Positions 1 to 41,533 of a stretch of 41,533 nucleotides of DNA are shown here, piece by piece (position 1 is the first letter of the stretch; each line of letters starts with the position of its first letter). The position numbers were made by a program, and so were the translations under genes. A model generated the notes under the pieces. It ran no database searches and had not been told where the DNA came from. It saw only the letters and a list, made by a program, of their open reading frames with translations. This stretch comes from a virus, in IMG/VR virus record IMGVR_UViG_3300031456_000011, positions 1 to 41,533 of that record; one strand, 5' to 3'.

Positions 1-68
1 CCGAGCCGGCCGAAGCCGACCCGGGCGCTGCACAGCAGGTCAAAGGAGGTATCCCCGACCCGCGACCG
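1..68. other. Left flank outside the element (probable host chromosome)
   Basis: Short stretch to the left of the tRNA 3' fragment. I see no gene. It differs from the sequence left of the right-hand att copy, so it is outside the repeat and is either host DNA or the end of another inserted element. It contains an AAAGGAGG string at about 43-50 that looks like a Shine-Dalgarno site on the plus strand, but no start codon follows at a suitable distance. Confidence 0.5.
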
Positions 69-110
69 TAGACCCTGTGGGACTCGAACCCACAACCAAT
101 GGATTAAAAG
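69..110 (-). tRNA. tRNA-Lys(TTT) 3'-half fragment at attL (partial, not a working tRNA)
   Basis: Read on the minus strand this gives an anticodon loop CTTTTAA (anticodon TTT, 106-108), the 3' side of the anticodon stem, a variable loop, a perfect T-arm (stem GTGGG/CCCAC around TTCGAGT, 77-93) and the 3' acceptor strand AGGGTCT (70-76). The DNA that should hold the 5' half (111-150) has no D-loop GG and no AGACCCT acceptor strand, and the anticodon stem pairs at only three of five positions. It is therefore the displaced 3' end left by integration into a tRNA-Lys gene. Confidence 0.75.
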
Positions 111-191
111 TCTGTCGATCGCTCATGGCGTCTCACCCCGCCGAGTTTGCCTCACCCCACCAAGCCCCGGCAAGTGCAGGTCAGCGGCATG
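92..191. repeat. attL: left copy of a >=100-bp direct repeat
   Basis: Positions 92-191 match 41434-41533 base for base (offset 41342); the right copy is cut by the window end, so it may be longer. The tRNA-like part (92-110, through the anticodon loop) is the likely core where a tyrosine integrase exchanges strands. The rest (111-191) does not resemble a tRNA and should be phage arm DNA; it contains repeated TCACCCC strings (133 and 152, with more at 224 outside the repeat). Only one copy of the phage arm would be expected after a single integration. Confidence 0.8.
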
Positions 192-330: not shown

Positions 331-2010
331 CTACGGCTCCGCAGCCCCGTTGTCAGTGCTCGCCAGTAGCTTGGAATCGTCCACATCAGCGTTTGCTGGC
401 TGCGACGCTTCAGGCCCCTGCTCCGGAACAGCGCCCGGGACGGGGGCCTCGTCGCGCGGCCTCCGTGCCCGCGGCACGGTCGCCGCCGCTCGCTCGGTCA
501 GCTCGTCCTCGTACTCCTCGAACAGCTCCATGTACGTGTCCGAGGTCAGCGTGATCGTCGAGTGGCGCAGCTTCACCTTGGCATCGTGCAGGTCGCCACC
601 GCCGGCCTTCACCAGCGCAGCGGCACCGTGGCGGAGGTCACGCAGGTTGATGGGCGGCAGGCCGGCCGCGTCCGAGATCCGGCGGAAGGCCTTCGAGACG
701 AAGTCCGGGTGCAGCCAGCTGCCGTCCTCGGCCGTGAACATCTTCCCCGTGTCGGTCCAGTCTGCGGTGTCCTTGCCCTGCTCCCGCTCGGCGGCGGCCT
801 GTGCGTTCCAGGCTTCCCGCTCCGCGCGCTGCTGCTCGCGATGGACCAGCAGGACGCGCACCGTCTCGGCGTCGATCTTTACGACGCCCACGGATCCGTC
901 GGTCTTAGGGCTCGTCTCGATGGGGGTCCAGCCGTCGACCACGATCTCTGTGCTGACCCTGATCTCTTTCCGCGCTGCCGAGAAGTCGTCCCAGCCCTGG
1001 CCGACCCCTTCGCCGCGGCGCAGGCCGTGGTGAGCAGTCAGGTGGAAGAACGCGTACAGGCGGTCGGCCTCGGCCTCGTCGAGGAACTCGCCGAGCTGGG
1101 CAGGTGTCCACACCATGACCGGGCCCGGCTTCTGTCCGGTCTCCCGCCAGCGCGCCACCCTCTCAGCCGTCCACAGCAAGCCCTTGGGCCGCGCGGCGGG
1201 ATCCAGTTCGACGTGGGAAGCCGCGTTGAAGGTGATGAGCTGCTTGGCGATCGCCTTGTTCAGCGCCATACGGAGCGTGCGGCGGACGGCCTGCTTCGTG
1301 GCCGGGCCAGTGATCCGACGGAAGGGCGGCATCTCGGCGAGCGTCGCCCGTTCGGCGGCCAGTTGGGTGCGTTCGCTGGCCTTGGGCGCCCCGGGCTTGC
1401 CTCGCTTGCAGCGGGCGACCTGTGCACGGCGCGCGGCGTTCTCTGCCGCGATCACGTCGTTCCGGTCGTCGATCGCGTTGAACATGTCCTCGACGTGCCC
1501 GACACCGAGCCGGTCCAGGCGCAGATGCCCGAGTGCGGGCTTGAGGTGCACGCGGACGTGGCTGTTGTAGCCCCGGTTCGTGGTGATGCGGGTCTTCTTG
1601 TTGGCCATGACCTGGTCGAGCAGATCGCCTACGGTCATTTTCCCGTCGAGCGGGATGCCGACCCCGAGCTTGCGCGAGACCTCGGAGGCCTCGGGGATGT
1701 TCGCGCGTCGCTTGCTGATGTCGGCGAGGAGATCGCCTACCCGCAGCTGCGCGTCGGTGTCGTCTCCGGGCAAGTCAAGGATGGCCTGAAGGCGGGACAG
1801 GTCGCCCTGGGCCTCCGTGACTCGCTTATACCCGGTGCGGCGAAAGGTGCGCCGCGTGCCCTCGGCGTCTGGTGGCAACTCCTGGCGGAGTGCGACGGAA
1901 CCGTGGGACTTCTTCTTGAGCTGTGGACAGGTGTTGCTCAGTAGTTTGCCGTCACCATCGCGACACTCGCAGCGTCGGTAGACACTCCCTGCGCTACGCG
2001 CTGACGGCAT
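331..2010 (-). CDS. int: Tyrosine (site-specific) integrase
   Basis: 559-aa tyrosine recombinase that integrates and excises the element at the tRNA-Lys att site. The C-terminal catalytic domain has the box I arginine in HHGLRRGE (about R331), a beta-hairpin lysine (SPKT, about K369), the box II stretch NLRDLRHG (455-462), LRHS (His about 483) and the nucleophile Tyr in SDTY (about Y493). Box II reads R-x-x-R where most relatives have H-x-x-R. The middle (about 125-180) looks like a SAM-like core-binding domain (VGDLLDQVM..., YNSHVRVHLKPALG). A Cys-rich N-terminus (CEC...C, residues 14-28), seen in other Streptomyces integrases, may bind zinc. It lies beside attL and follows the small gene 2016-2249 after 5 bp, so the two are probably cotranscribed. 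The tail after about 510 is low complexity. Confidence 0.93.
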   Translation of the reverse strand: MPSARSAGSVYRRCECRDGDGKLLSNTCPQLKKKSHGSVALRQELPPDAEGTRRTFRRTGYKRVTEAQGDLSRLQAILDLPGDDTDAQLRVGDLLADISKRRANIPEASEVSRKLGVGIPLDGKMTVGDLLDQVMANKKTRITTNRGYNSHVRVHLKPALGHLRLDRLGVGHVEDMFNAIDDRNDVIAAENAARRAQVARCKRGKPGAPKASERTQLAAERATLAEMPPFRRITGPATKQAVRRTLRMALNKAIAKQLITFNAASHVELDPAARPKGLLWTAERVARWRETGQKPGPVMVWTPAQLGEFLDEAEADRLYAFFHLTAHHGLRRGEGVGQGWDDFSAARKEIRVSTEIVVDGWTPIETSPKTDGSVGVVKIDAETVRVLLVHREQQRAEREAWNAQAAAEREQGKDTADWTDTGKMFTAEDGSWLHPDFVSKAFRRISDAAGLPPINLRDLRHGAAALVKAGGGDLHDAKVKLRHSTITLTSDTYMELFEEYEDELTERAAATVPRARRPRDEAPVPGAVPEQGPEASQPANADVDDSKLLASTDNGAAEP

Positions 2011-3737: not shown

Positions 3738-4208
3738 GTGAAGCACCTTCCCACGCCCGACGTCAGCCGCGCGCTCGCCGACATCGAGGCCGTCAAGCAG
3801 GGCGCCGAACCGGCCGTCGTTGAGTGCCTGACCGCGATCGCGGACCTCGTCCAGCAGACGGGCGACCCGGCGAGCGTCTTCGACAGCGTCCTGGACGCCT
3901 TCGCCCGCGAGGAAATCCGGGTACTGGCCGCCGCACACCGCGTGCGCCTGCACATGACGACCGCCAAGCCGGTCACCCTCGGGTACCGCAACGACGCCTT
4001 CCTCGTGTGGCAGGCAGACGGGACCGGCATCGCCGCCATCCCGCGCGAGCAGCGCCCCCGCGATGCCCTCGACCAGTTGCGCGGATTCATCCGCGCGCGT
4101 GAAGAGGAAGAGCGCCTGGCCGCCGACTTCCAAGCGTCCGTCGCGGCCGGCCACGTCGAGGGCCTCGACGCCTGGGACGCCCGCATCTCATCTCAGGCGG
4201 GGCGTTGA
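3738..4208 (+). CDS. Hypothetical early protein
   Basis: 156-aa protein from GTG 3738, preceded by ACGGGG; the longer open frame upstream (from 3588) overlaps the previous gene and is ignored. Mostly helical and acidic (ALADIEAVKQGAEPAVVECL, LDQLRGFIRAREEEERLAADF), with a central strand region ITLGYRNDAFLVWQADG-like. I do not recognise a family. It is in the early operon between the excisionase-like gene and the primase, and its stop overlaps the TTG start of the next gene, suggesting coupled translation and a role in early replication or regulation. Confidence 0.6.
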   Translation: MKHLPTPDVSRALADIEAVKQGAEPAVVECLTAIADLVQQTGDPASVFDSVLDAFAREEIRVLAAAHRVRLHMTTAKPVTLGYRNDAFLVWQADGTGIAAIPREQRPRDALDQLRGFIRAREEEERLAADFQASVAAGHVEGLDAWDARISSQAGR

Positions 4209-4435
4209 CCACCTCCGCCGTGCGCTCCCGGGACACCCCGGGCGGCACGGCCGAACCCCAGGTCGTCGGCGTGCTCGTCATCGACGCCGACAACGGCAGG
4301 GCCCGTTACGACTGCCACCGGCCCGGCTGCCCGAAGCGCCGCGAGGGCCCGGTGTACGGGGCCGCGATCCCGGAGTGGTCCAAGACCGTCAGGGCCGAGC
4401 ACATCGCCCAGTACCACCCGGGGGAGCAGCCTTGA
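4205..4435 (+). CDS. Small zinc-finger-like protein
   Basis: 76-aa protein, probable TTG start at 4205 overlapping the previous stop (TTGA), with GGCGGGG before it; GTG 4220 is an alternative. Residues 35-72 contain C-x4-C (CHRPGC) followed by H-x4-H (EHIAQYH), a spacing that fits a C2H2-type zinc finger binding nucleic acid or protein. It sits directly before the primase-helicase, whose TTG start overlaps its stop, so the two are probably made together. Family not recognised; zinc binding is inferred from residue spacing only. Confidence 0.55.
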   Translation: MTTSAVRSRDTPGGTAEPQVVGVLVIDADNGRARYDCHRPGCPKRREGPVYGAAIPEWSKTVRAEHIAQYHPGEQP

Positions 4436-7290
4436 CCGACTCGCAGACTCCAGACCTCCGGGCAGCAGCCCGCGAGCTGCACGACGCGGGCCTGTGCGTG
4501 CTGCCCATCAAGGCCGACGGCACCAAGAAGCCAGCCGTGGCGTGGCTCGAATACAAGGTGGCCCGGACCACGCCCGAGCAGCACGACACCTGGTTCGGCG
4601 GAGACCGAGCCCGCGGCATCGCCGTGGTGTACGGCGAGGTGTCCGGCGGCGTTGAGCTGATCGAGTTCGAGGGCCTCGCCATCCGTGAGGGCCTGCTCGA
4701 CGACGTCACCCAGATCATGAACGACTCGGGACTTGGCGAGCCGTGGGCCGCTGTCCTCAGCGGCTGGGTCTCCGAGTCGCCTTCCGGCGGCCGGCATTAC
4801 CGCGTCCGCGTCGAGGGTGGCGTACCCGGCAACAGCAAGCTGGCCTCTCGCCTCGCCCGCGAGGACGAGTACACCGAGGAAGAGCGCCAGCGGATCCGGG
4901 AGAAGCCGAACGCTCGCATCGTCCGCGTCCTCATCGAGACCCGCGGCGAGGGCGGGTACGGCCTCGTCGAACCGTCGAGCGGTGCCGTCCATGCTTCCGG
5001 GCGTCCGTACGTCCGGCTGGCAGGTGGCCCGGACGCCGTCCCCGTCCTGGACGCCGAGACGGTTGACGCGATCCGCAACGCCTGCCGCATGGTGGACGCG
5101 CTCCCCCAGCCCGAGGCCGTGAAGACCGCACCGCGCCCCGCGCCCCCGCGCAATGACGGGAGCCTGCGGCCCGGCGACGACTTCGAGGCTCGCGCGTCCT
5201 GGGAGGACATTCTCCGGAGCGTCTTCCGCCCGCTGTCCACCCGTGGCAGTGAGACGTACTGGGGATGGGCCGATGGCGTCGGCGGTGTGAAAGCGACGAC
5301 CGGGAAGGACGAGCACGACCGCCTGTTCGTCTTCGCCACCGGGTCCGAGTTCCAGAGCGAGGTGCCGTACAGCAAGTTCGGCGCGTACGCCCTGCTCAAC
5401 CACAGCGGTGACCACAAGGCCGCCGCCCGTGAGCTGGCCCGCCAGGGCTTCGGCAGCCGCCACCTGGCCTCGGTTGGCGCTCCGTCCGCCGCACCCGCAC
5501 CCACCGCCCCTACCCCCGACACGGCGCCCGACGAGGACGAGCACACCAGGGCCGACGAGGAGCAGGCTCACAAGGCCGACACCGCTCGTGAATCGGAAGG
5601 CTTTGGGTACGCCGACACCTTCGACCTACCGCTCGGCGTCCGTACGCCGTACGACTACCGGGTCACCGGCAGGGGCGTCGAGGTGCTCAGCCAGAGTGGC
5701 GAAAGCTGGACACGGGTCACCTTCGCCCCGCTGGTGGTGACGGCTACCTTCGAGGACCCCGAAGGCGACCAGTACGTAGAGCTCTCGTGGATCGACCGCA
5801 GTCTCGGACGGCCCCGCCGTATCTCCCGCATCGTCAGCCGCGAGACCGCGAAGCGCGGGCGGAAGCTGATCGAGACGCTCGGCTCAGCTGGACTCCCCGC
5901 AGTCGAGGGCGACGCGAGGGCCGTCGAGAAGTGGCTCGCCGAGTTCGAGGCAGAGAACGTCCACCGCATCCCGTCTGAGCAGCTGGCCCGCTGGCTGGGC
6001 TGGCAGGACGACGGCACGTTCGTCTCCTCGCCCGAGGACGGCATCAAGGTGGACACCGCCTTCGAGGAGCAGCGCGGCCCCGCCCGAGCACACGCCAGGA
6101 AAGGGACCCTTGAGGACTGGCAGGCGACCGTCGCCCACCTCGCCGGCTACCCGGTGCCGCGCGTCGCCGTCGCCGCCGCGCTCGCTGCTCCGCTGCTCAA
6201 GCCGCTCGGCCTGAACTCCTTCACCCTGGATATCTCCAGCCGGTCTACCAAGGGGAAGACGACCGCGCTTCAGGTCGCGCTCAGCGTGTGGGCCGACCCG
6301 TCCGAGCACGCGAGCGCCATGTCCAACTGGCGCACCACCCTGTACGCGATCGAGAAGCGGCTGAACCTGGTGCGCGGGATCGTCACCGTGTTCGACGAGA
6401 CGATGGCAGTCACGGACGACAGCCTCATCGACGAGGTGCTCTACCAGCTCCCGATGAACCACGGGAAGGCGCGCAGCGGCGGGGCGTTCGGCAACATGCT
6501 GCCCTGGGAGACGATCCTCCTCTCATCCGGTGAGCGCCCGGCGCTGAGCTTCACGACGAGCCAGGGCGCGGCGGCCCGCATCCTCGGAACGACCATCGCC
6601 CCGTTCGGCGACGGAGGCGGCCCGACGGCGGCAGCAGCCCGTGAGGGCGTCCTCGCCAACCATGGCCACGCGGGGCCGGAGTTCATCCGGTACATCCTCA
6701 GCGGCCTCGCCCAGCCGAACGGCAGGGAGAAGCTCAAGGAACATCACCGCACGCTGGTCGACGAGTTCCGTGGCGCCGGCGACATGACCAACAGGCGCGC
6801 GCCCATGGTCGCCGCGCTGGTCCTCGCCGAGACGCTGGCCTGCCGAACAGGCCTGCTGCCGTACGAGCCGCTCACCCACGATGTGTGGCGCTCGCTGTTC
6901 ACCGCCCACAACCCCACCGACAACCGGCCGCAGATGGCCTTGGACGTCCTTCGCGAGTACGTCGCAGGGCACGCCCACGAACTTTTCACCACCACTCGCG
7001 CGGCCATGAACGAGAAGCCGCCGTACTCCGGATGGCTCGGCGCCCTGTCCACCAAGGACGGCGTAACTGAGGTCGCGCTGCTGCCGGAGCGCGTACGCAA
7101 GATCCTCGCCGAGGCGGACTACTCGCTCGACGCCGTAGTCGGCAGCTGGGTCGACGCCGAGTACCTCAAGGTGCTGAAGAGCCAGCGCCCGGCGCACCTG
7201 TTGCCGCGCCGCTTCGACGGCGTCCGCGCAAAGTGCCTGGCGTTCACGCCCGACGGGATCAGCTTCGGCGACGAGGACGAGGCGGCATGA
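4432..7290 (+). CDS. Primase-polymerase / DUF927 helicase fusion (phage replication protein)
   Basis: 952-aa protein from TTG 4432; a longer frame reading (from 4063) runs through two upstream genes and is discarded. The N-terminus (about 1-200: ELHDAGLCVLPIKADGTKKPAVAW, GIAVVYGEVSGGVELIEFEG, SPSGGRHYRVRVEGG) is a bifunctional DNA primase/polymerase (prim-pol) domain. The C-terminal half resembles DUF927-type hexameric helicases: Walker A STKGKTTA at about 604-611 and Walker B VTVFDE at about 650-655. A Pro/Ala/Glu-rich linker (about 345-380) joins the halves. This architecture is common in phages and integrative elements and supplies priming and unwinding at an origin. It is followed directly by an iteron-rich gap, the likely origin. 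Confidence 0.85.
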   Translation: MTDSQTPDLRAAARELHDAGLCVLPIKADGTKKPAVAWLEYKVARTTPEQHDTWFGGDRARGIAVVYGEVSGGVELIEFEGLAIREGLLDDVTQIMNDSGLGEPWAAVLSGWVSESPSGGRHYRVRVEGGVPGNSKLASRLAREDEYTEEERQRIREKPNARIVRVLIETRGEGGYGLVEPSSGAVHASGRPYVRLAGGPDAVPVLDAETVDAIRNACRMVDALPQPEAVKTAPRPAPPRNDGSLRPGDDFEARASWEDILRSVFRPLSTRGSETYWGWADGVGGVKATTGKDEHDRLFVFATGSEFQSEVPYSKFGAYALLNHSGDHKAAARELARQGFGSRHLASVGAPSAAPAPTAPTPDTAPDEDEHTRADEEQAHKADTARESEGFGYADTFDLPLGVRTPYDYRVTGRGVEVLSQSGESWTRVTFAPLVVTATFEDPEGDQYVELSWIDRSLGRPRRISRIVSRETAKRGRKLIETLGSAGLPAVEGDARAVEKWLAEFEAENVHRIPSEQLARWLGWQDDGTFVSSPEDGIKVDTAFEEQRGPARAHARKGTLEDWQATVAHLAGYPVPRVAVAAALAAPLLKPLGLNSFTLDISSRSTKGKTTALQVALSVWADPSEHASAMSNWRTTLYAIEKRLNLVRGIVTVFDETMAVTDDSLIDEVLYQLPMNHGKARSGGAFGNMLPWETILLSSGERPALSFTTSQGAAARILGTTIAPFGDGGGPTAAAAREGVLANHGHAGPEFIRYILSGLAQPNGREKLKEHHRTLVDEFRGAGDMTNRRAPMVAALVLAETLACRTGLLPYEPLTHDVWRSLFTAHNPTDNRPQMALDVLREYVAGHAHELFTTTRAAMNEKPPYSGWLGALSTKDGVTEVALLPERVRKILAEADYSLDAVVGSWVDAEYLKVLKSQRPAHLLPRRFDGVRAKCLAFTPDGISFGDEDEAA

Positions 7291-7616: not shown

Positions 7617-9224
7617 ATGTCCTTCGCACCCCGCCCCTATCAGGTCGACGCGATCGAGGCGCTCCACCGTGGTTGGAGCACCGGCCAGACCCGCATCGCC
7701 GTCGTTCTCCCGACCGGCGCCGGTAAGACCGTCGTCTTCTCCCACCTGGCCCACCAGATGCTCGACAAGCTCGACGGCCGCCGAGCGCTCGTCATCGCCC
7801 ACCGCGAGGAGCTGATCGAGCAGGCCGCTTCCAAGCTGCTCGCCGTCGACCCGATGCTGCGCGTCGGCATCGTCAAGGCCCAGCGCGACGACCACCACGA
7901 CGCCGACGTGATCGTGGCCAGCGTCCAGACCCTGGCCGTACCCAAGCGCCGCGAGGCCATCCGCGACATCGGCCTGATCATCGTGGACGAGTGCCACCAC
8001 GCCGCCGCTCCCACCTACATGGAGGTCCTCCAGCACTTCGGAGCCTGGGACGGCGTACCGACGGCCGGCTTCACCGCCACGATGACCCGGACCGATGGCG
8101 GCCTCGCCGAGGTCTGGCAGGACGTCGTCTTCCGCCTCGACATCCTCGACATGATCAGCGACGGCTATCTCTGCGACGTCCGCGGCAAGGCCATCACCGT
8201 CGACACCCTCGACCTCAACAAGGTCAAGACCCGCGGCGGCGACCTGATCGACGGCCAACTCGGCAAGGCGCTGGAAGACTCCGGCGCGCTCGACGCGATC
8301 GCCAAGGCCTACGTCGACCACGCCAGCGACCGCCCGGGCGTCGTCTTCACGCCGACCGTGGCGACCGCCCAGGGCGCCGCCGCCGCGCTGCGGGCCGTCG
8401 GAATCAAGGCCGCCCCGGTCTGGGGCGACATGGGCCGCGACGAGCGCCGCGCGACCCTCGCCCAGTACGCGGCGGGCGACGTGCAGGTGCTTACCAACTG
8501 CATGGTGCTCACGGAGGGGTTCGACGCCCCGCACACCTCCTGCATCGTGGTCGCCCGGCCCACCAAGAGCGCCGGCCTGTACGTGCAGATGGTCGGGCGC
8601 GGCCTGCGCCCGGCGCCGGGCAAGCGGGACGCCCTGCTGCTCGATGTCATGGGCGCCGCGAGCCGCCACAAGCTCGCGTCGATGGTCGACCTGACCGAGC
8701 GGGACATCGGCGAGGCCGACGAGGGCAAGAGCCTGCGGCAGGTCGCCGAGGAGCACGTGGCCTCCGAGAAGCGCCGGGCCCTGGCCGCGCAGGTCCATGC
8801 CGAGGAGATCAGCCTGTTCGGCGGCTCGTCCATCTGCTGGCTGCGGACGCCAGCCGGGACCTGGTTCATCCGGGTCTCGAACTCGATGACGCTGTTCCTC
8901 GCCCGGGACCACGGGACGCGCCTGTACCGGATGCGCCGCTGGACAGCACAGGACGGCGTACAGCCGCCGCGCGAGGACGTCGCCCGCCCGCTCGACGAGG
9001 CGCTGGCCTGGTTGGAGCAGCAGGCCCGCGTGCTGGCGCCAGGCGCGTTCGTCGACCGCCGTGCGCGCTGGCGAGCGGGCAAGCCGAGCCCGAAGCAGCT
9101 GGGCCTGTGCCGCCGCCGGGGCCTCGCGATCCCTCGGCAAGCGTCGGCGGGCGAGGTCGCCGACCTGATCGACATCGCCCATGTGACGTCGGTCCTCGAT
9201 GGCCTGCTCGCCCGCGCCGCTTAA
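7617..9224 (+). CDS. SF2 DEAD/DEAH-box helicase
   Basis: 535-aa ATP-dependent helicase. The N-terminus has a Q-like motif (RPYQVDAIEAL, 6-16), Walker A LPTGAGKT (31-38), motif Ia (AHREELIEQA), motif II DECHH (124-128) and a motif III-like FTATMTR (about 149). The second RecA fold has VVFTPTVATAQ, a FDAPHTSCIVVARPT stretch and motif VI QMVGRGLRPAPGK (about 324-336). It belongs with UvrB/RAD25-like ResIII helicases common in actinophages. The C-terminal quarter (about 390-535) is specific and includes a segment (ARWRAGKPSPKQLGLCRR) found in nucleic-acid-binding tails of such proteins. It probably acts in replication or recombination with the primase. ATG start is preceded by GATCGAGGTGACC. Confidence 0.9.
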   Translation: MSFAPRPYQVDAIEALHRGWSTGQTRIAVVLPTGAGKTVVFSHLAHQMLDKLDGRRALVIAHREELIEQAASKLLAVDPMLRVGIVKAQRDDHHDADVIVASVQTLAVPKRREAIRDIGLIIVDECHHAAAPTYMEVLQHFGAWDGVPTAGFTATMTRTDGGLAEVWQDVVFRLDILDMISDGYLCDVRGKAITVDTLDLNKVKTRGGDLIDGQLGKALEDSGALDAIAKAYVDHASDRPGVVFTPTVATAQGAAAALRAVGIKAAPVWGDMGRDERRATLAQYAAGDVQVLTNCMVLTEGFDAPHTSCIVVARPTKSAGLYVQMVGRGLRPAPGKRDALLLDVMGAASRHKLASMVDLTERDIGEADEGKSLRQVAEEHVASEKRRALAAQVHAEEISLFGGSSICWLRTPAGTWFIRVSNSMTLFLARDHGTRLYRMRRWTAQDGVQPPREDVARPLDEALAWLEQQARVLAPGAFVDRRARWRAGKPSPKQLGLCRRRGLAIPRQASAGEVADLIDIAHVTSVLDGLLARAA

Positions 9225-19866: not shown

Positions 19867-20148
19867 ATGGGCCCCGTCGAGCAGGCCGTCCGCGACGACG
19901 TCAGGGAGCTTGGCGACCTGGTGGGCGTCGAGCCGTCGCTCTCCGAGATGGCGTACCGGCTCGCCCGCGAGATCGACGGCGCGTCGATGGCCGAGTGCGA
20001 GACGTGCGGTGAGCCAATCCCCAACCAGGAGGACACCCGCTCTCTCCCTCAGTTGAACCGCGAGCTTCGGCAGACGCTCGCCCAGCTGCTGGAGGGACGG
20101 GCGCCTGACGATGACGACGAACTCGGAGACCTGGGCTCCCCCGACTGA
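19867..20148 (+). CDS. terS: Terminase small subunit
   Basis: 93-aa protein. ATG 19867 is preferred over ATG 19846 because of GGAAGGGGGCG before it. Residues 1-40 (EQAVRDDVRELGDLVGVEPSLSEMAYRLAREIDG) are helical, then a Cys pair (CETCGEP) and a C-terminal helix SLPQLNRELRQTLAQLLEGRAPDDDDELGDL of the form shared by small terminase subunits of actinophages. It recognises phage DNA and loads the large subunit. Its end overlaps the large-subunit gene by 38 bp. Assignment relies on this pattern and on position. Confidence 0.7.
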   Translation: MGPVEQAVRDDVRELGDLVGVEPSLSEMAYRLAREIDGASMAECETCGEPIPNQEDTRSLPQLNRELRQTLAQLLEGRAPDDDDELGDLGSPD

Positions 20149-21676
20149 GTTCGCCGAGGATCTGCACGAGCGGTACGGGCTGACGTGCCCTCCGCGCTGG
20201 GGAACGCCGCGGCATCCGGACCGGCCGTCGTTGGGACCGAAGCTGTGGAAGGTCATGGCCAAGCTCGGGGCCCCACCGATGCCGTGGCAGAAGTACGTGT
20301 CCGACGTCGCCTTGGAGATCGACCCGGACACCGGCCTGTTCGCGCACCGTGAGGTCGGGCTCAGCGTGTCCCGACAGCAGGGCAAGACCGAGCTGTGTCT
20401 TGGCGCCCAGGTGCACAGGTCGCTGGCATGGCCGCGGCAGAACATCGTGTACGCGGCGCAGACCCGGGGCATGGCCCGGCAGCGCTGGGAGGACGAGTTC
20501 TGGGAGAAGATCTCCGGCTCGGATCTGGCCCGGATGGCGCGCATCCGGAAGTCGAACGGCAACGAGGCGATCCTGTGGCCGAGCAAGCGCTCGAAGATGG
20601 GCATCACCGCGAACACCGAGAAGGCCGGCCACGGGCCGCCGCTCGACCTCGGTTTCATCGACGAGGCGTTCGCGCACGAGGACGACAGGTTGGAGCAGGC
20701 TTTCAGCCCGGCCATGCTGACCCGGACCATGGCGCAGCTGTGGTGGGCGTCCGCCGGCGGCACCACCAAGAGCGTATGGCTGAACAAGAAGCGCAAGGTG
20801 GGGCGCGAACTGATCGAGGCTCTGTTCGCCGCGCTCGCCCAGGACTTGGGCGCTCTCCGTCCCGCGACCGCGTACTTCGAGTGGTACGCGCCGGAGGACA
20901 TGCCGCGAGACGATCCGGCGACGTGGCGGGCGACACTGCCCGCGCTGGGCTACACCGTCACCGAGGCAGTCATCCGCGCCGAGCTGGAGAAGATGGCCGA
21001 TGACCCCAGCGCGTTCGACCGGGCGTACCTGAACCGCACGCGGAAGCCGGCCCCGCCGTCCGACCCGAACGTGCCAAAGGCGGCATGGCCCGGGCTGGTC
21101 GACGCGGACAGCAAGGCGAACTCGGACGTGGCGTTCGCCATCGACGTGTCGCAGGACAGGAAGCGGGCGGCGATCGCTGCGGCCTGCCGCCGCCCGGACG
21201 GCAAGGTGCACCTGGAGGTCGTGGCGTACCGGCCCGGTACGGACTGGGTGGTGCCCGCCATGGTGAAGCTGCACGGGCTTTGGAAGCCAGTGGCCGTAGC
21301 GGTCGCCGCATCGGGGGCACCGGCCAGTTCACTCATCGACGACCTGGTGGCCGCAGGCATCGACGTGCCCAAGGACAAGGAACAGCCGGAGCGCGGCGAC
21401 CTGGCCATAATGCGCAGCGGCGACATCATCGAGGCGTGCGGGCAGATGGCCGACGCCATGAACCAGGGCACGGCCCGGCACATCGACCAGGTGCCGCTGA
21501 CCGCTGCCGTGAACGGCGCCCGGACACGGCGCAACGGTGACGCCTGGACGCTGGACAGAACCAGCTCGCTGACCGAGGTCAGTCCCTTCGCCGCGGCGAC
21601 GTTCGCCCGCTGGGCACTGGTGATCCGGGGCCCGCACGTACTGGACGACTACGACCCACTCGATTCGATCTACTGA
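20111..21676 (+). CDS. terL: Terminase large subunit
   Basis: 521-aa DNA packaging motor and nuclease. The ATPase part has a degenerate Walker A VSRQQGKTE (about 85-93), the adenine-binding region before it (PWQKYVSDVALEI), Walker B LGFIDEAFAH (about 180-188) with catalytic Glu, and a coupling stretch WWASAGGTTKS. The RNase H-like nuclease starts with FAIDVSQDRKR (about 341-351, first catalytic Asp) and continues through PASSLIDDLVAAGIDV to a late acidic segment. Length and motifs fit HK97-like Terminase_1/Terminase_3 proteins. It opens the head operon and overlaps terS. Confidence 0.92.
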   Translation: MTTNSETWAPPTEFAEDLHERYGLTCPPRWGTPRHPDRPSLGPKLWKVMAKLGAPPMPWQKYVSDVALEIDPDTGLFAHREVGLSVSRQQGKTELCLGAQVHRSLAWPRQNIVYAAQTRGMARQRWEDEFWEKISGSDLARMARIRKSNGNEAILWPSKRSKMGITANTEKAGHGPPLDLGFIDEAFAHEDDRLEQAFSPAMLTRTMAQLWWASAGGTTKSVWLNKKRKVGRELIEALFAALAQDLGALRPATAYFEWYAPEDMPRDDPATWRATLPALGYTVTEAVIRAELEKMADDPSAFDRAYLNRTRKPAPPSDPNVPKAAWPGLVDADSKANSDVAFAIDVSQDRKRAAIAAACRRPDGKVHLEVVAYRPGTDWVVPAMVKLHGLWKPVAVAVAASGAPASSLIDDLVAAGIDVPKDKEQPERGDLAIMRSGDIIEACGQMADAMNQGTARHIDQVPLTAAVNGARTRRNGDAWTLDRTSSLTEVSPFAAATFARWALVIRGPHVLDDYDPLDSIY

Positions 21677-21687
21677 AGGGGGGCGTA

Positions 21688-21864
21688 GTGCGCGAGCGGA
21701 TGACGACCGCGCTCGACACCGTCGGCCTGCTGCTCGTGGCGGCCGGGGCGGGCGCAGGGGTGTATCGGTGGCTGGGGTGGGCGGCGATGGCCGCCAGCGG
21801 CGCCGTGGTCCTCGCTGGTTCCTGGCTGGCTGCGGGGGCCGGCAGGAAGGGCGGTAAGACGTGA
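21688..21864 (+). CDS. Small two-helix membrane protein between terminase and portal
   Basis: 58-aa protein from GTG 21688 (GGGGGGCGTA upstream), ending at TGA 21862-21864. The sequence TTALDTVGLLLVAAGAGAGVYRWLG and WAAMAASGAVVLAGSWLAAGAG gives two hydrophobic helices, with basic ends (MRERM, RKGGKT). Small membrane proteins in this exact slot recur in Streptomyces siphophages; their job is unknown. The 4-bp overlap with the portal gene supports it. Confidence 0.65.
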   Translation: MRERMTTALDTVGLLLVAAGAGAGVYRWLGWAAMAASGAVVLAGSWLAAGAGRKGGKT

Positions 21865-23039
21865 GTCTCTTCCGACGCCGCGACTACGCGGGGCAGACCG
21901 CCGACCAGATGATCCCGCCGCGGCCTGGCATGGGCGGCGGGTCCCCGGTGGTCACGAACGAGACGGCGCTGAGGCACAGCGCGGTGTGGGCGTGCCTGCG
22001 GCTGCGCGCGAACCTCATCAGCACCATGCCCGTGGACCTGTTCCGCAAGGTGGAGGGGATCCAGGTCGAGGTGCCCAAGCCGACCGTGCTGATCACCCCC
22101 GGTGGGGACAAGGTCAAGATGCCGGAGTGGATGTACTCCAGTCAGTTCGACCTCGACCGGGCGGGCAACACGGTGGGGCTGATCACCGCCAGGGACGGGC
22201 TGAACCTGCCGGCGCGCATCGAGCTGGTGCCGAGCAGCGACGTCACGGTCCGGATGCGCAAGGGCAAGCTGACCTACCGCATCGCAGGCACCACCTACCA
22301 GCCCGACGAGGTCTGGCACGAGAAGCAATACACGGTCCCGGGCCTGCCGGTCGGCCTGTCGCCGGTGGCGTACGCCGCGTGGTCGATCAGCGAGTACCTG
22401 TCCATCCAGCAGTTCGCGATGGACTGGTTCCGCAACGGTGCGGTGCCCAGTGCCCACCTGAAGAACACCGCGAAGACGATCACGCCGTCGGTGGCCGACG
22501 AGACGAAGCAGCGCTTCAAGGCGGCCGTCCAGGGCCGGGACCTGTTCGTCACCGGCAACGACTGGGACTACGAGATGATCCAGGCCGAGCAGGCGGGCGC
22601 TGACTGGATCGCCGCGAAGCAGTTCGGCATCGGTGACATCGCCCGGTTCTTCGACTGCCCGTCCGACCTGATCGATGCGTCGGTGTCCGGCAGCTCGGTC
22701 ACCTACGCGAACATGACGCAGAGGAACTTGCAGTTCCTGGTGATGTCCCTGGGCCCGGCCGTGTCACGTCGCGAGGACGCGCTCTCTGATCTCTCCTCGC
22801 GTCCGCGGTTCGTGAAGCTGAACCGCAACTCGCTGCTGTCGATGGACCCGCAGACTCAGGCCAGCGTGATCAGCACGCGCATCACCTCGCGGACGCTGGC
22901 GCCGTCCGAGGCCCGCGCCCTGTACGACCTGCCCCCGTTCACCGAGCAGCAGAAGGCCGAGTTCGACCGGCTGTTCGGCAAGGGCACCACTCCGACGCCC
23001 ACCACCGCGACCCCGCAAGCAGGAGGAGCACCCTCATGA
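21861..23039 (+). CDS. Phage portal protein (HK97 family)
   Basis: 392-aa protein from GTG 21861. Twelve copies form the ring at the capsid vertex through which DNA passes. The family is shown by NETALRHSAVWACLRLRANLISTMPVDLF (start of the wing domain), the VPSSDVTVRM...KLTYRI strand region, EVWHEKQY, the stem region LSIQQFAMDWFRNGAVPSAHL and the FGIGDIARFFDCPSDLI helix typical of HK97-type portals. The Pro/Thr-rich end (TTPTPTTATPQAGG) is disordered. It is coupled by overlap to both neighbours. Confidence 0.92.
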   Translation: MSLFRRRDYAGQTADQMIPPRPGMGGGSPVVTNETALRHSAVWACLRLRANLISTMPVDLFRKVEGIQVEVPKPTVLITPGGDKVKMPEWMYSSQFDLDRAGNTVGLITARDGLNLPARIELVPSSDVTVRMRKGKLTYRIAGTTYQPDEVWHEKQYTVPGLPVGLSPVAYAAWSISEYLSIQQFAMDWFRNGAVPSAHLKNTAKTITPSVADETKQRFKAAVQGRDLFVTGNDWDYEMIQAEQAGADWIAAKQFGIGDIARFFDCPSDLIDASVSGSSVTYANMTQRNLQFLVMSLGPAVSRREDALSDLSSRPRFVKLNRNSLLSMDPQTQASVISTRITSRTLAPSEARALYDLPPFTEQQKAEFDRLFGKGTTPTPTTATPQAGGAPS

Positions 23040-23842: not shown

Positions 23843-23979
23843 GCACCACCAGACACAGCGCGCTGTCCGGCAGACGCCCGGATGCGCAGCCCTGTGCCGC
23901 CCGGCAGATGACCCGGGTTGGGCCGTGGCCCCGCTGTTGCTGCACCCAACAACCCCATCTGTACGGAGGGAACACACCC

Positions 23980-25401
23980 ATGCCCGGAACCATCGACGAC
24001 CTCATCGCGAGCATCGAGGTCGAGCTGGAGGCCGCCCAGAAGCGGCTGAAGAAGTGCGGTGCCGAGGTTCAGCTGATCTTGGACAAGGCGCAGCAGGACG
24101 GCCGTTCCAACCTCTCGGCGGAGGAGGACACCCGCGTCGCCGAGCTGTTCGCCGCGCGCGACCAGGCCCGCACCGACATCACCGGCATCGAGAACAAGCT
24201 GGCGACCACGAACAAGCTGAAGGTCGAGGAGCAGGAGCGGGAGACGAAGCAGAAGGAGTTCCGCGACACGCAGACCCGCACGCCCTCCTACGACCAGGTC
24301 GTCCGCGTCGGACGCGAGGAGCGGACCTACCGTTCGGACCAGGACCCGTTCGGCAAGGGCTTCCTGATGGACGTCTCGCGCCAGTTCCTCTACCAGGACG
24401 TCGAGGCCTCCCACCGCCTCGCGCAGCACATGCGCGAAGAGCGGGTCGAGCGCGCCGAGTACATGCAGCGCGCCGTCGGCACCGGGGCGTTCGCGGGCCT
24501 GACGGTCCCGCAGTACCTGACCGACATGTACGCCCCGGCCACGGCGAACCTGCGGCCGTTCGCGGACGCCTGCAACCAGCACCCGCTGCCGGAGTCGGGC
24601 ATGTCGGTGAACATCTCCCGCATCACCACGCCGTCCAGCGCGGCGTTGCAGGCGTCGGAGAACGCGGCGGTCGCCGAGCAGGACATGGACGACACCCTGC
24701 TGACCGTCCCCGTGCAGACCGCAGCCGGCCAGCAGACCGTGTCCCGGCAGGCGATCGACCGCGGTACGGGCATCGAGGACGTCACGATGCAGGACCTGTT
24801 CAACCGGGTCGCCACCGTCCTCGACTCGACGCTGATCAACCAGGCCACCACCGGTCTGTCGGCGATCTCGCAGGCCGTCGCCTACACCGACGCCTCCCCG
24901 ACGGGTGCCGAGATGTACCCGAAGATCCTGGGGGCAGCCGCAGGCGTCGAGGCGAACCTGCTCGCGATGGGCCGACCGTCGCACGCGGTCATGCACTCGC
25001 GCCGCTGGTACTGGCTGTCGAGCCAGATGCAGAGCGTATGGCCGATGATCAACTGGACGAACCTCCCCGTTCAGGCCGCTGGCCAGGCCAACCCGGCCAG
25101 CTCCTACAACTCCGGCCCGCGCGGTGTGCTGCCGTGCGGCCTGGAGGTCATCGTCGACAACAACATCCCCACGGGCCTGGGCGGCGGCACGAACGAGGAC
25201 GAGCTGTACGTCGTCCCGCAGTCGGAGTGCCACCTGTGGGAGGACCCCAACGCGCCGATGTTCATCCGTGCCGAGCAGGCCAAGGCCGCGAGCCTGGGCG
25301 TGCTGCTGGTGGCGTACAGCTACTTCGCCTACACCTTCGGCCGGTACGCCAACGGCATGCAGAAGGTCGGCGGCACGGGGATGGCCCAGCCGACGTTCTG
25401 A
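23980..25401 (+). CDS. Major capsid protein (HK97 fold)
   Basis: 473-aa protein from ATG 23980 with ACGGAGGGAAC. The first about 110 residues are charged coiled coil (VELEAAQKRLKKCGAEVQLI, RVAELFAARDQARTDITGIENKLA), the scaffolding delta domain. The rest follows the HK97 capsid pattern: GTGAFAGLTVPQYLTDMYAPATANLRPFADAC, a VSRQAIDRGT backbone helix region, ASPTGAEMYPKILGAAAGVEANLLAMG, then the YVVPQSECHLWED P-domain end. Cleavage by the upstream protease is expected near the end of the coiled region. A 13-bp hairpin directly follows the stop. Confidence 0.92.
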   Translation: MPGTIDDLIASIEVELEAAQKRLKKCGAEVQLILDKAQQDGRSNLSAEEDTRVAELFAARDQARTDITGIENKLATTNKLKVEEQERETKQKEFRDTQTRTPSYDQVVRVGREERTYRSDQDPFGKGFLMDVSRQFLYQDVEASHRLAQHMREERVERAEYMQRAVGTGAFAGLTVPQYLTDMYAPATANLRPFADACNQHPLPESGMSVNISRITTPSSAALQASENAAVAEQDMDDTLLTVPVQTAAGQQTVSRQAIDRGTGIEDVTMQDLFNRVATVLDSTLINQATTGLSAISQAVAYTDASPTGAEMYPKILGAAAGVEANLLAMGRPSHAVMHSRRWYWLSSQMQSVWPMINWTNLPVQAAGQANPASSYNSGPRGVLPCGLEVIVDNNIPTGLGGGTNEDELYVVPQSECHLWEDPNAPMFIRAEQAKAASLGVLLVAYSYFAYTFGRYANGMQKVGGTGMAQPTF

Positions 25402-27185: not shown

Positions 27186-27382
27186 TGCGCATCCGCATCA
27201 CCCAACAGCAGCCCGAGGGCGCGGTACTCAACGACGAGCCATGGCCCGACGAGGGCGACGAGGTCGAGGTGCCGACCGCACAGGGCGCGCACCTGGTCGC
27301 GTCCGGTGTCGCCGAGGAAGTCGTCGACAAGCCCGCGCCGCGCGGCCGTAAGAGCCCCGCGAAGGGAGGCGACGATGCCTAA
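27185..27382 (+). CDS. Small acidic neck-region protein
   Basis: 65 aa from ATG 27185 (6 nt after GGAGG); ATG 27182 is adjacent and in the same frame but too close. Sequence MRIRITQQQPEGAVLNDEPWP, then a central EVPTAQGAHLVASGVAEEV and a basic end PRGRKSPAKGG. Short acidic proteins with a hydrophobic middle segment of this sort sit in the neck region of actinophages, function unknown. The end overlaps the next gene by 8 bp. Confidence 0.5.
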   Translation: MRIRITQQQPEGAVLNDEPWPDEGDEVEVPTAQGAHLVASGVAEEVVDKPAPRGRKSPAKGGDDA

Positions 27383-28115
27383 GACCGTGCTGACCAACGT
27401 GCGGTGCTTCGCCGTTGGCGTCGACCTCACCGGCAACTCCAACAAGATCGAGTTGTCCTCCGAGGTGGAAGCCAAGGAGACGACGAACTACGGCTCGCAG
27501 GCGTACAAGGAGTTCGTAGGCGGCATCGGCTCGGCGGAGATCGCAGGCGAAGGGCAGTGGGAGGCCCTCGACGTCACGAAGGTCGACGACGCGTCCTGGG
27601 CGCAGCTCGGCGGCGTCGGCCCGTGGTCCATCAGCGCCAACAGCGGTGCGGCCGTGGGTGACCTGGCCTACTTCACGCAGGCCCTGCGCTCGGACTACAA
27701 GCTGTTCGGCGAGGTTGGCGACGTCGCGCCGTGGACGGGCACCGCGAAGTCCGCGTGGCCGCTGGTGCGCGGCCAGTTCGCCCACCCGCCCGGCACCGCC
27801 CGTACTGCGACCGGCACCGGGACCGGGCTCAACCTCGGCGCCGTCGCCCTGAATAAGCGGATGTACGCCTCGCTGCACGTGCTGTCGGTGGCCGGCACCG
27901 CCACGCCGACCATCACCGGCCGTGTGGAGTCCTCCGTGGACAACACGTTCGCGAGCCCGACTACCCGCCTGACGTTCGCCGCGGCTACCGCGGTCGGCGG
28001 GCAGACCCTGCGTACCGCAGGCACGGCCATCACGGATGCGTGGTGGCGCGTGGCGTGGACGATCTCCGGCACTACGCCGTCGTTCCTGTTCGCCGCCGCG
28101 CTCGGCATCCAGTAG
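27375..28115 (+). CDS. Major tail (tube) protein, larger paralog
   Basis: 246-aa protein from ATG 27375 (GAAGGGAGGC upstream). Residues 1-75 carry the tube-protein pattern: VLTNVRCFAVGVDLTGNSNKIELSSEVEAKETTNYGSQAYKEFVGGIGSAEIA (shown to its end in parts). The rest adds a beta-rich region (TPTITGRVESSVDNTFASPTTRLTFAAATAV). The protein at 28182 shares the N-terminal motif and ring contacts, so the two are paralogs. It polymerises around the tape measure to form the tail tube. Confidence 0.75.
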   Translation: MPKTVLTNVRCFAVGVDLTGNSNKIELSSEVEAKETTNYGSQAYKEFVGGIGSAEIAGEGQWEALDVTKVDDASWAQLGGVGPWSISANSGAAVGDLAYFTQALRSDYKLFGEVGDVAPWTGTAKSAWPLVRGQFAHPPGTARTATGTGTGLNLGAVALNKRMYASLHVLSVAGTATPTITGRVESSVDNTFASPTTRLTFAAATAVGGQTLRTAGTAITDAWWRVAWTISGTTPSFLFAAALGIQ

Positions 28116-29706: not shown

Positions 29707-31815
29707 GTGAGCGATACCTCACTCGTGTTCAACCTGGTCGCCCGCGAGCAGGTGAGCGCGACCCTCGGCAAGGTCAAGGAGAAGTTCGACGCCGCTGCAA
29801 CCGGCATCGCCGCGGGCGTCGCCGGCGCCCTCGGCTACGGAGTGGCAGCGTCGATGGACATGTCGGCGGCCAACGCGAAGCTGGCCGCGCAGCTCGGCAT
29901 CGGTCCGGCCGAGGCCGCGAAGCTCTCCAAGGTCTCAGCGGACGTCTACGCCCAGAACTGGGGCGATTCCACCGAGCAGGTCAACGAGGCGATCAAGGGC
30001 GTCTACCAGAACATCGGGGACGTCTCCAAGGCCAAGGGCGGTCTGGAGGGCGTCACCACCAAGGCCCTCGCGCTGGCGCAGACCTTCGACCAGGAGGTCG
30101 GCCCGACCACTGCGGCGGTCGGCCAGATGCTCAAGACCGGGCTGGCGAAGAACGCCGACGAGGCCTTCGACATCATCACCACGGGCTTCCAGAGCGGCGT
30201 CAACAAGGCAGACGACTTCCTGGACACGCTGAACGAATACGGCGTGCAGTTCCACTCACTGGGCCTGAACGGGCAGATGGCCACCGGTCTGCTCTCCCAG
30301 GGCCTCAAGGGCGGCGCCCGGGACGCCGACCTGGTCGCCGATAGCCTCAAGGAGTTCAACCTCCGGGCCCGCGACATCACCTCGACGGCGGGGGCAGGCT
30401 TCAAGTCCCTGGGCCTCAACGGCAAACAAATGGCCGCGGACGTAGCGGCCGGCGGACCCAAGGCCACCGCCGCCCTTCAGGCCACCCTCGACGCGCTGCG
30501 CAAGTACCCGGACAGCTCGAAAAAGGCGTCGATCGCCTCGGCCATCTTCGGCACACAGTCCGAGGACATGCAGAAGGCGCTGGAGTCCCTCGACCCCAGC
30601 ACGGCTGTCAGCGCGATGGGCAAGGTCAGCGGTGCCACCGACCGGATGGCCAAGACGCTCAGCAACAGTCCGTCTGCCGCCCTGGAGACTTTCAAGCGGC
30701 AGGCCACCGTCAAGCTCGCCGAGGTCGGCGGGGTGTTCGTCCAGTTCGCCATGGACAACAAGGGCGCCTTCGGACCGCTCGCCATGATCCTGGGCGGGGT
30801 CGCTGCCGCGATCCTCGCCGTCTCGGTCGCCCAGAAGATCTACGCCACGTACACCGCCATCGCGTCCGCCGCCCAGACCATCTGGAACTCGACGATCTGG
30901 GCCTCTACAGCGGCTCTGCTGGCGAACCCGATGACGTGGATCGTCATTGCGATCATCGCCCTGATCGTCGTCATCGTGCTGATCGCGACGAAGACCACGT
31001 GGTTCCAGACCATCTGGTCCACCGTGTGGGGCGCGATCGTCGATGCCACGAAGGCGACGATCAGCGGCATCGGCGCTGCGCTTGGCTGGTTCGCCTCGCT
31101 GCCAGGCAAGTTCGCCGGCTGGTTCGGCTCCGCCAAGGACTGGGCGATCAAGAAAATGGTCGAGCTGGTCAACTGGCAGGCGGCCCTGCCGATACGGCTC
31201 TGGAACGCGCTGTCCAGCCTGGCAGGCACCGTGAGTTCGCGGGCGTCGGGCGCCTTCCAGTCCATGAAGGACGCAGCGGTCACCAAGGCCACATCCATGA
31301 TCAACTGGGTCAAGGGGCTGCCCGGGCGCCTCGCCAACGCCCTCGGCGACCTCAACGGCCTGCTCTACAACAAGGGCCTGGACATCGTCTCCGGCCTGTG
31401 GAACGGCATCAAGGCCATGGGCAACTGGCTCAAGGCCACCCTGATCAACTGGGCCAAGGACGTCATCCCCGGCCCGATCATCAAGGCCCTGGGCATCGGA
31501 TCCCCGGCAAGGGTGCTGGCGGCCGAAGTCGGGCACTGGATCCCGCCCGGCATCGCGATGGGTGCCGAGGACAACCGCGGCGTCCTCGACAAGACCATGT
31601 CCACGCTCGTCAGCCCGGCCGCCTACCGCCCCACAGCCCAGTCCATGGGCGTGACCCCGTACACCGGCGCGGCCTCCACCCTCGGCGCCACCCAGGGCGC
31701 CGGCCCGCGCCTGGTGTTCGAACTGCGCGGCGGGACGAGGGCGTTCCGGGAGTTCTTCCAGGAGTCCGTCCGCGTCACCTCCGGCGGCGACGTCATCAAG
31801 TTCGCAGAGGGGTGA
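29707..31815 (+). CDS. Tape measure protein
   Basis: 702-aa protein from GTG 29707. N-terminal TSLVFNLVAREQVSATLGKVKEKFDAAATG and the long helical, Ala/Gly/Lys-rich region are typical; the TMP core family pattern (DSTEQVNEAIKGVYQNIGD, FDQEVGPTTAAVGQMLKTGLA, KADDFLDTLNEYGVQFHSLGL) is clear. Hydrophobic helices lie at about 357-380 and 409-430 (WIVIAIIALIVVIVLIATK). Repeated WF/LPG units (about 455-590) form the C-terminal part. At roughly 0.15 nm per residue it would predict a tail of about 105 nm, short to medium for a siphophage. Confidence 0.92.
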   Translation: MSDTSLVFNLVAREQVSATLGKVKEKFDAAATGIAAGVAGALGYGVAASMDMSAANAKLAAQLGIGPAEAAKLSKVSADVYAQNWGDSTEQVNEAIKGVYQNIGDVSKAKGGLEGVTTKALALAQTFDQEVGPTTAAVGQMLKTGLAKNADEAFDIITTGFQSGVNKADDFLDTLNEYGVQFHSLGLNGQMATGLLSQGLKGGARDADLVADSLKEFNLRARDITSTAGAGFKSLGLNGKQMAADVAAGGPKATAALQATLDALRKYPDSSKKASIASAIFGTQSEDMQKALESLDPSTAVSAMGKVSGATDRMAKTLSNSPSAALETFKRQATVKLAEVGGVFVQFAMDNKGAFGPLAMILGGVAAAILAVSVAQKIYATYTAIASAAQTIWNSTIWASTAALLANPMTWIVIAIIALIVVIVLIATKTTWFQTIWSTVWGAIVDATKATISGIGAALGWFASLPGKFAGWFGSAKDWAIKKMVELVNWQAALPIRLWNALSSLAGTVSSRASGAFQSMKDAAVTKATSMINWVKGLPGRLANALGDLNGLLYNKGLDIVSGLWNGIKAMGNWLKATLINWAKDVIPGPIIKALGIGSPARVLAAEVGHWIPPGIAMGAEDNRGVLDKTMSTLVSPAAYRPTAQSMGVTPYTGAASTLGATQGAGPRLVFELRGGTRAFREFFQESVRVTSGGDVIKFAEG

Positions 31816-35945: not shown

Positions 35946-35963
35946 CTCATGTCTGGAGCACAC

Positions 35964-36887
35964 ATGGCCACACCCCTGACCGCTGCCCGGATGCTCGCCG
36001 TGCTGAAGGCCGAGGGCCTCACAGTGCATGAGCACACCGGCTGGACGACTCACAACCGCGAGGCGGCCACCGGCAAGACTTTCGGACCCGTGATCGGCGT
36101 GCTGATCCACCACACGGCCGGGCACGGCGACAAGGAGATCTGCTACAACGGCCGCTCCGACCTGCCCGGCCCGCTCTGCCATTCCTGGCTCGGTAAGACC
36201 GCAGGCCTGTGGATGATCGGCCACGGCCGGGCGAATCACGCGGGCCTCGTCGACCTCGACGTCCTCAACGCCCTCCGTGCGGAAGCGAGCCCGCTGCCGC
36301 ACGACGACCAGGCCAACGCGGACGGCAACGACGTCCTGTACGGGCTGGAGATCGAGAACCTCGGCGACAGCAAGGACCCCTACCCGGCCGACCAGTACCG
36401 CCAAGCCGTGCTGTGGGCCGCCGCGCTATGCCGGGCGCACGGCTGGACGGAACGTTCCGTCGCTGGGCACAAGGAAGTCCAGCCCGGCAAGATCGACCCC
36501 AGCTTCGACATGAACGACTTCCGCGCGGACGTGAAGAAGCAGCTCGCCACCAAGCCCGGCGCGACGGGTACTACGCCGACCACTCCGAGCAAGCCGAAGG
36601 TCGACCTGTCCCAGCTGATCGCCGCGGCGAAGGCGGACCCGGGGGCGAAGCAGGGCCACGTCACCTACATGGCCGGCACGAACCTCGTCGAGGCCGCCCT
36701 GGTCAAGCTCGGCTACCTCGCCAAGACCTACGCGGGCGACGGCTCCTTCGGCTCGACGACCGTCACGGCGTACGGAAAGTGGCAGCGCCACCTCGGCTAC
36801 ACCGGCACGGACGCCAACGGCATCCCCGGCAGCGCCTCCCTCAGCCAGCTCGGCACCAAGTCCGGTCTGTTCACCGTCGTCGCCTGA
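35964..36887 (+). CDS. Endolysin: N-acetylmuramoyl-L-alanine amidase with C-terminal cell-wall-binding-like domain
   Basis: 307 aa from ATG 35964 (TGGAGCACAC upstream; ATG 35949 is in frame but sits in the terminator tail). It cleaves the amide link between muramic acid and the peptide stem. Residues about 45-170 show the amidase_2/PGRP fold: IGVLIHHTAGHG (zinc His about 47), ANHAGLV, LYGLEIEN, and VAGHKEVQPGKIDPSFDM (second zinc His, catalytic Lys region). After a Pro/Thr linker (about 200-215) comes a peptidoglycan-binding-like domain (LVKLGYLAKTYAGDGSFGSTTVTAYGKWQRHLGY, in parts). It heads the lysis cassette. Confidence 0.9.
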   Translation: MATPLTAARMLAVLKAEGLTVHEHTGWTTHNREAATGKTFGPVIGVLIHHTAGHGDKEICYNGRSDLPGPLCHSWLGKTAGLWMIGHGRANHAGLVDLDVLNALRAEASPLPHDDQANADGNDVLYGLEIENLGDSKDPYPADQYRQAVLWAAALCRAHGWTERSVAGHKEVQPGKIDPSFDMNDFRADVKKQLATKPGATGTTPTTPSKPKVDLSQLIAAAKADPGAKQGHVTYMAGTNLVEAALVKLGYLAKTYAGDGSFGSTTVTAYGKWQRHLGYTGTDANGIPGSASLSQLGTKSGLFTVVA

Positions 36888-41369: not shown

Positions 41370-41404
41370 CGCCCCCAGCTCGAACTAGCTCTGAGCTGGG
41401 GGCG
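41370..41404 (-). terminator. Hairpin just past the tRNA-like 3' end
   Basis: CGCCCCCAGCTC (41370-41381) and GAGCTGGGGGCG (41393-41404), 12-bp perfect stem. Read on the minus strand it begins 7 nt after the tRNA-Lys-like 3' end (41411), exactly where a tRNA gene's terminator would be. The element thus carries a tRNA 3' half together with its terminator. Confidence 0.7.
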
Positions 41405-41410
41405 ATCCCG

Positions 41411-41452
41411 TGGGCCCTGTCGGACTCGAACCGACAACCAATGGATTAAAAG
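41411..41452 (-). tRNA. tRNA-Lys(TTT) 3'-half fragment carried by the element (partial)
   Basis: Same structure as 69-110: anticodon loop CTTTTAA, perfect T-arm and 3' acceptor AGGGCCC. It differs from the left copy at the T-stem pair (GTCGG/CCGAC instead of GTGGG/CCCAC; 41421 and 41433 against 79 and 91), a compensated change, and at two acceptor bases. The 5' half is not present to the right in this window. Confidence 0.75.
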
Positions 41453-41533
41453 TCTGTCGATCGCTCATGGCGTCTCACCCCGCCGAGTTTGCCTCACCCC
41501 ACCAAGCCCCGGCAAGTGCAGGTCAGCGGCATG
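41434..41533. repeat. Right copy of the att direct repeat (attP-like junction)
   Basis: Identical to 92-191 up to the window end. To its left lies the phage right arm (arm repeats 41319-41340); to its right lies sequence equal to the phage left arm (111-191), not a tRNA 5' half. That is the structure of attP rather than of a normal attR, so another copy or a related element may begin here. Confidence 0.75.

Follow-up and report, generated by a model that had tools for sequence, protein, structure and literature searches.

A temperate Streptomyces phage record bounded by attL and attP, most likely assembled from integrated and excised DNA

The IMG/VR record IMGVR_UViG_3300031456_000011, analysed here in its entirety as a window of 41,533 bases that ends at position 41533, carries what its sequence supports as a temperate Streptomyces phage, integrating through a tyrosine integrase at the 3′ half of a tRNA-Lys(UUU) gene. 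The two borders of the phage share their attachment sequence, and the initial annotation took the right border for an attP instead of an attR and proposed a possible tandem prophage. The question raised by this locus is thus what an attP at the end of a record that starts with an attL signifies. The record does end in the attachment site formed where the ends of a circular (or repeated) phage genome are joined; an attP in this position is ordinary, most likely reflects the assembly of a mixture of integrated and excised phage, and is by itself no proof of a tandem.

The two borders contain an exact direct repeat of 100 bp with no mismatches (92-191 and 41434-41533), and the right copy stops on the last base of the record (41533). 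A repeat of this length in 41.5 kb of DNA with 69% GC is out of the question as a chance event. The recurrence of the left-arm sequence immediately to the right of the right-hand core, noted at the outset, is exact, and its description as not tRNA-like holds for 113-191. The span first given for it (111-191) was nearly right, the adjustment being that the core shared by attB and attP comprises 92-112 and that the phage-only arm starts at 113. To the left of the two repeat copies lie two related but differing versions of the tRNA-Lys 3′ end, a host-type T-arm and acceptor at 69-91 (GTGGG..CCCAC-AGGGTCT, minus strand) and a phage-type one at 41411-41433 (GTCGG..CCGAC-AGGGCCC, minus strand).

The identity of the borders was established by comparison with ∼60 tRNA-Lys(UUU) sites of Streptomyces phages and genomes. 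Phages, plasmids, IMG/VR and genomes supplied relatives of the integrase (331-2010), whose attachment sites were then aligned; automatic sorting mislabels a few sites (e.g. L003, L097 and L098), which were read by eye. Three arrangements recur among the relatives, given here in the sense of the tRNA. The attR sites consist of TTAGCTCAATTGGCAGAGCAGTGGA-CTTTTAATC, the 3′ half and then the phage right arm, which contains a GCCCCAG.TCAGAG terminator hairpin. The attL sites consist of the phage left arm (..CAGA)-CTTTTAATC, the 3′ half and a chromosomal flank that ends with the terminator native to the tRNA, while the attP sites, as in the free phage TurkishDelight (L003) and NZ_CP108372.1 (L004), consist of the phage left arm, CTTTTAATC, the 3′ half and the phage right arm. 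The position matching 113-191 is occupied by the tRNA 5′ half TTAGCTCAATTGGCAGAGCAGTGGA at attR and by phage arm DNA at attL and attP; next to the core, the tRNA-Lys 5′ half in the relatives reads TCCACTGCTCTGCCAATTGAGCTAA.

The left border of the window presents, in order, a chromosomal flank (1-68, minus strand), in which the record starts within the native GC-rich terminator hairpin as judged by its fold, the host copy of the tRNA 3′ end (acceptor and T-arm, 69-91), the core (92-112, minus strand) and the first 79 bp of the phage left, integrase-proximal arm (113-191); by this order it is an attL. The flank is 84-89% identical to those of tRNA-Lys attL sites, and in other Streptomyces the same type of flank directly follows the intact tRNA at unoccupied sites, which identifies 1-68 as chromosomal. 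Related elements precede similar flanks in two genomes (G002 and G003), but the presence of this flank at unoccupied sites led us to set aside the possibility that 1-91 belongs to a further stacked element. The right border presents the phage's own version of the tRNA 3′ half and its terminator arm, including GCCCCCAGCTC..GAGCTGGGGGC (41371-41403, minus strand; a hairpin by its fold, and the same element that comes after the 3′ half in the attR and attP sites of the relatives), then the second core (41434-41454, minus strand) and a second copy of the left arm, cut by the record end (41455-41533). Free phage, circular and integrated relatives all support its initial assignment as an attP and not an attR.

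Comparison with the tRNA-Lys genes in Streptomyces genomes identifies 41411-41454 as a copy of the tRNA 3′ half, the host tRNA being attB. Host and phage share the block GACTTTTAATCCATTGGTTGT (92-112 and 41434-41454), which covers the anticodon loop region. On one side of it the T-stems differ (host GTGGG/CCCAC versus phage GTCGG/CCGAC), and on the other the phage arm takes the place of the tRNA 5′ half; because the sequences diverge on both sides, strand exchange would fall within these 21 bp, by the reasoning already applied to mycobacteriophage Boilgate (PMC10865867). The tRNA is restored at attR in the relatives, and the attR of this host lies outside the record. The change in the phage T-stem is compensated, and its acceptor reads AGGGCCC where that of the host reads AGGGTCT, so that, with GGACCCT as the 5′ half of the host tRNA (the form present in hosts with the AGGGTCT acceptor, L055 and L057), the restored tRNA would carry an A3-C70 mismatch. 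This mismatch hints that the phage may have come from a host with GGGCCCT.

The way in which an attL and an attP could come to lie in one contig was modelled with de Bruijn graphs built from DNA models, in which attR was given the tRNA 5′ half of a relative. With attL and a phage circle as input, attR uncovered and k = 101 (100-bp overlap), the graph contains only two unitigs, 1-191 and 92-41533, the union of which is this record: a loop of 41,342 bp with a 191-bp stalk attached. When only an integrated monomer is modelled, the result is a single long contig that lacks the repeat. The record is thus probably a lasso contig from mixed integrated and excised phage DNA. The left end would be the attL of the phage integrated at tRNA-Lys(UUU), and the right end an attP from phage DNA with joined ends, most likely an excised or replicating circle existing beside the integrated form. 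The assembler would have passed from the short chromosomal stalk (1-91) once around the 41,342-bp phage circle, across attP, and halted where the sequence re-entered itself, leaving a 100-bp repeat of k-mer length. In tests for end overlap from circular templates, the repeat is exact, has a k-like length, stops at the contig end and is reproduced at k = 101, and we infer that it is the overlap of the assembler and that the joined ends derive from excised circles and not from a chromosomal tandem.

Circular forms exist in this group. The sister record IMGVR_UViG_3300046524_000291 (43,214 bp) is 82% identical over 8 kb at the integrase end and 94% identical over another 1.3 kb; its contig is closed, its identical ends overlap by 127 bp, and attP lies in its interior. 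In Streptomyces sp. NBC_01335, NZ_CP108372.1, a closed circle of 34.5 kb recorded as a "plasmid", has the same kind of integrase and an attP containing the tRNA-Lys 3′ half, and in spite of its plasmid label may, by its gene and site content, represent a phage or integrative element that was excised or had not integrated. In Mycobacterium abscessus, attP was detectable by polymerase chain reaction in most of the listed lysogen cultures that were consulted (PMC9934374). Exact scans of viral contigs for the left arm, the phage-type 3′ half and the right-arm terminator gave no matches, nor did a scan of genome contigs for the left arm, and the phage-type 3′ half was absent from 392 Streptomyces genomes; these scans, from which records that lie very close to the window may be hidden, thus yielded no other record of this phage and no attR for it.

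Several points weigh against assembly from a mixture of integrated phage and circle. The repeat length of 100 fits an overlap of k-1 with k = 101, but not the peaks at 55, 77 and 99 named by CheckV, and also differs from the 127 bp of the sister contig. When attR is present in the simulated graph the loop unitig stops at 41454, so that the assembler must have either missed attR or preferred attP to it at this position. For the shortness of the chromosomal stalk, 91 bp, a start inside the strong hairpin is the sole account. Lastly, a tandem dimer yields unitigs identical to those of a monomer plus circle, and the record itself consequently cannot separate the two. Our preference for the circle reflects the commonness of spontaneous excision and the existence of closed relatives, and not a direct test.

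A true tandem prophage, in which one phage occupies tRNA-Lys in two or more consecutive copies, arising through a second integrase-mediated integration or through recombination, would make the record the first copy plus the first 100 bp of the second. The junction of right arm, core and own left arm is the one expected in a head-to-tail dimer, although a circle contains the same junction and gives the same assembly graph. Tandem arrays are also documented elsewhere: tandem actinomycete integrative and conjugative elements have been described at tRNA-Lys in Frankia and at tRNA-Arg in S. avermitilis (PMC3218068), and tandem prophages have been reported in M. abscessus (PMC9934374). Stacking of different elements at this tRNA-Lys is seen in assembled Streptomyces contigs (G002, G003, G004, G005, G006 and G009). 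However, the second copy is seen for only 100 bp, an exact stop at this length requires an assembly stop in any case, and among the relatives examined no identical tandem was found, the arms of stacked neighbours being different. Of the original proposal, then, the attP arrangement is supported and the step from it to a tandem is not established, the tandem being the less likely of two indistinguishable graphs and, in our estimate, unlikely. A dimer or longer array of one Streptomyces phage stably kept head to tail at tRNA-Lys(UUU) in a natural host is slightly more doubtful still; if true, it might supply packaging with circular or concatemeric DNA.

That a different but related element sharing this left arm is stacked to the right of the phage, as was also suggested initially, is very improbable. 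Stacking is common at this tRNA and locally identical arms do occur, as in Streptomyces sp. SID12488, where a right-arm junction repeats 103 bp at two sites and then diverges. Integrase-proximal arms nevertheless diverge fast (at best 62/80 identical positions among the relatives, and 46-52/80 in most), and identity at 100/100 positions would demand a near-identical phage. A packaging terminal repeat of linear virion DNA, which the location of a direct repeat at the record end might suggest, is refuted almost beyond doubt by the position of the copies: the left one (92-191) is internal, bordered on its outer side by chromosomal DNA, and the repeat lies exactly at the attachment core beside the integrase gene.

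The tRNA-Lys(UUU) gene is a stacking site in Streptomyces more generally, with two to four attachment cores in a row and differing integrase-proximal arms (L049-L072, genomes G002-G009). One recurring arm type among the stacked sites (..CCAGCAAGCTTTGGCCAGGA; L049-L072) comes from a second element family. In SID12488, the 103 bp shared by the internal junction and attR comprise the core and right arm (L127:19414-19516 and L129:6452-6554), and may mean either that the stacked elements have a right arm in common or that their ends have recombined.

Next to the attachment site lies the gene for the tyrosine integrase (331-2010, minus strand, 559 aa; phrog_1, E=1.8e-34 in a PHROG search; relatives up to 82% identity). 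The left arm contains four TYACCCC repeats (at 133, 152, 216 and 226, the first two, TCACCCC, within the repeated segment), of 11 on this strand of the whole window, and these are possible candidates for arm-type integrase binding sites. PHROG searches identify a complete siphophage gene set in the body of the genome (2406-41102), including repressors, primase (4063-7290), helicase (7617-9224), TerL (20111-21676), portal (21861-23039), protease, capsid (23908-25401), tail terminator, major tail protein (27306-28115), tape measure protein (29707-31815) and endolysin (35949-36887). The head region has only short matches of ∼70% in the phage collection, in which the phage is without a close relative. 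For this Streptomyces phage the record thus yields the attachment site, a 21-bp crossover interval and a unit length of 41,342 bp. More generally, attL and attP in one record can mimic a tandem prophage, and such IMG/VR records are best treated as mixed integrated and circular populations unless reads indicate otherwise.

The assembly of circular templates is known from CheckV to leave end repeats at k-mer lengths (PMC8116208). The present record resembles these in that assembly would have left identical sequence, k-mer-like in length, at its end, but differs in that the left copy lies 91 bp inside, behind a host stalk, giving a lasso in place of a simple circle. The sister IMGVR_UViG_3300046524_000291 is the closest phage found over the integrase and replication end (82-94% DNA identity in blocks) and has the same right-arm terminator, but is closed, lacks a host stalk and has a different left arm. 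Streptomyces phage TurkishDelight (NC_073473.1) encodes a related tyrosine integrase next to attP, with left arm, tRNA-Lys 3′ half and right-arm terminator in the same arrangement; however, its integrase gene has ∼70% DNA identity, its genome is 93.6 kb and its arms are different. The tRNA-dependent lysogeny of the Fionnbharth type involves a core of only ∼10 bp, by which the tRNA is not restored, together with a phage-encoded tRNA (PMC10865867). This model was rejected here, as the phage carries the whole tRNA 3′ half and ARAGORN finds no tRNA gene in the window. In the system of mycobacteriophage Boilgate (attP/attB-4; PMC10865867), an actinophage tyrosine integrase likewise uses the 3′ half of tRNA-Lys(TTT) as its attachment site, with strand exchange mapped between the core start and the first mismatch and the tRNA restored at one junction. 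It differs from the present case in that host and phage here are of Streptomyces, the phage copy has its own T-stem and acceptor variant, and the restored junction lies outside the record.
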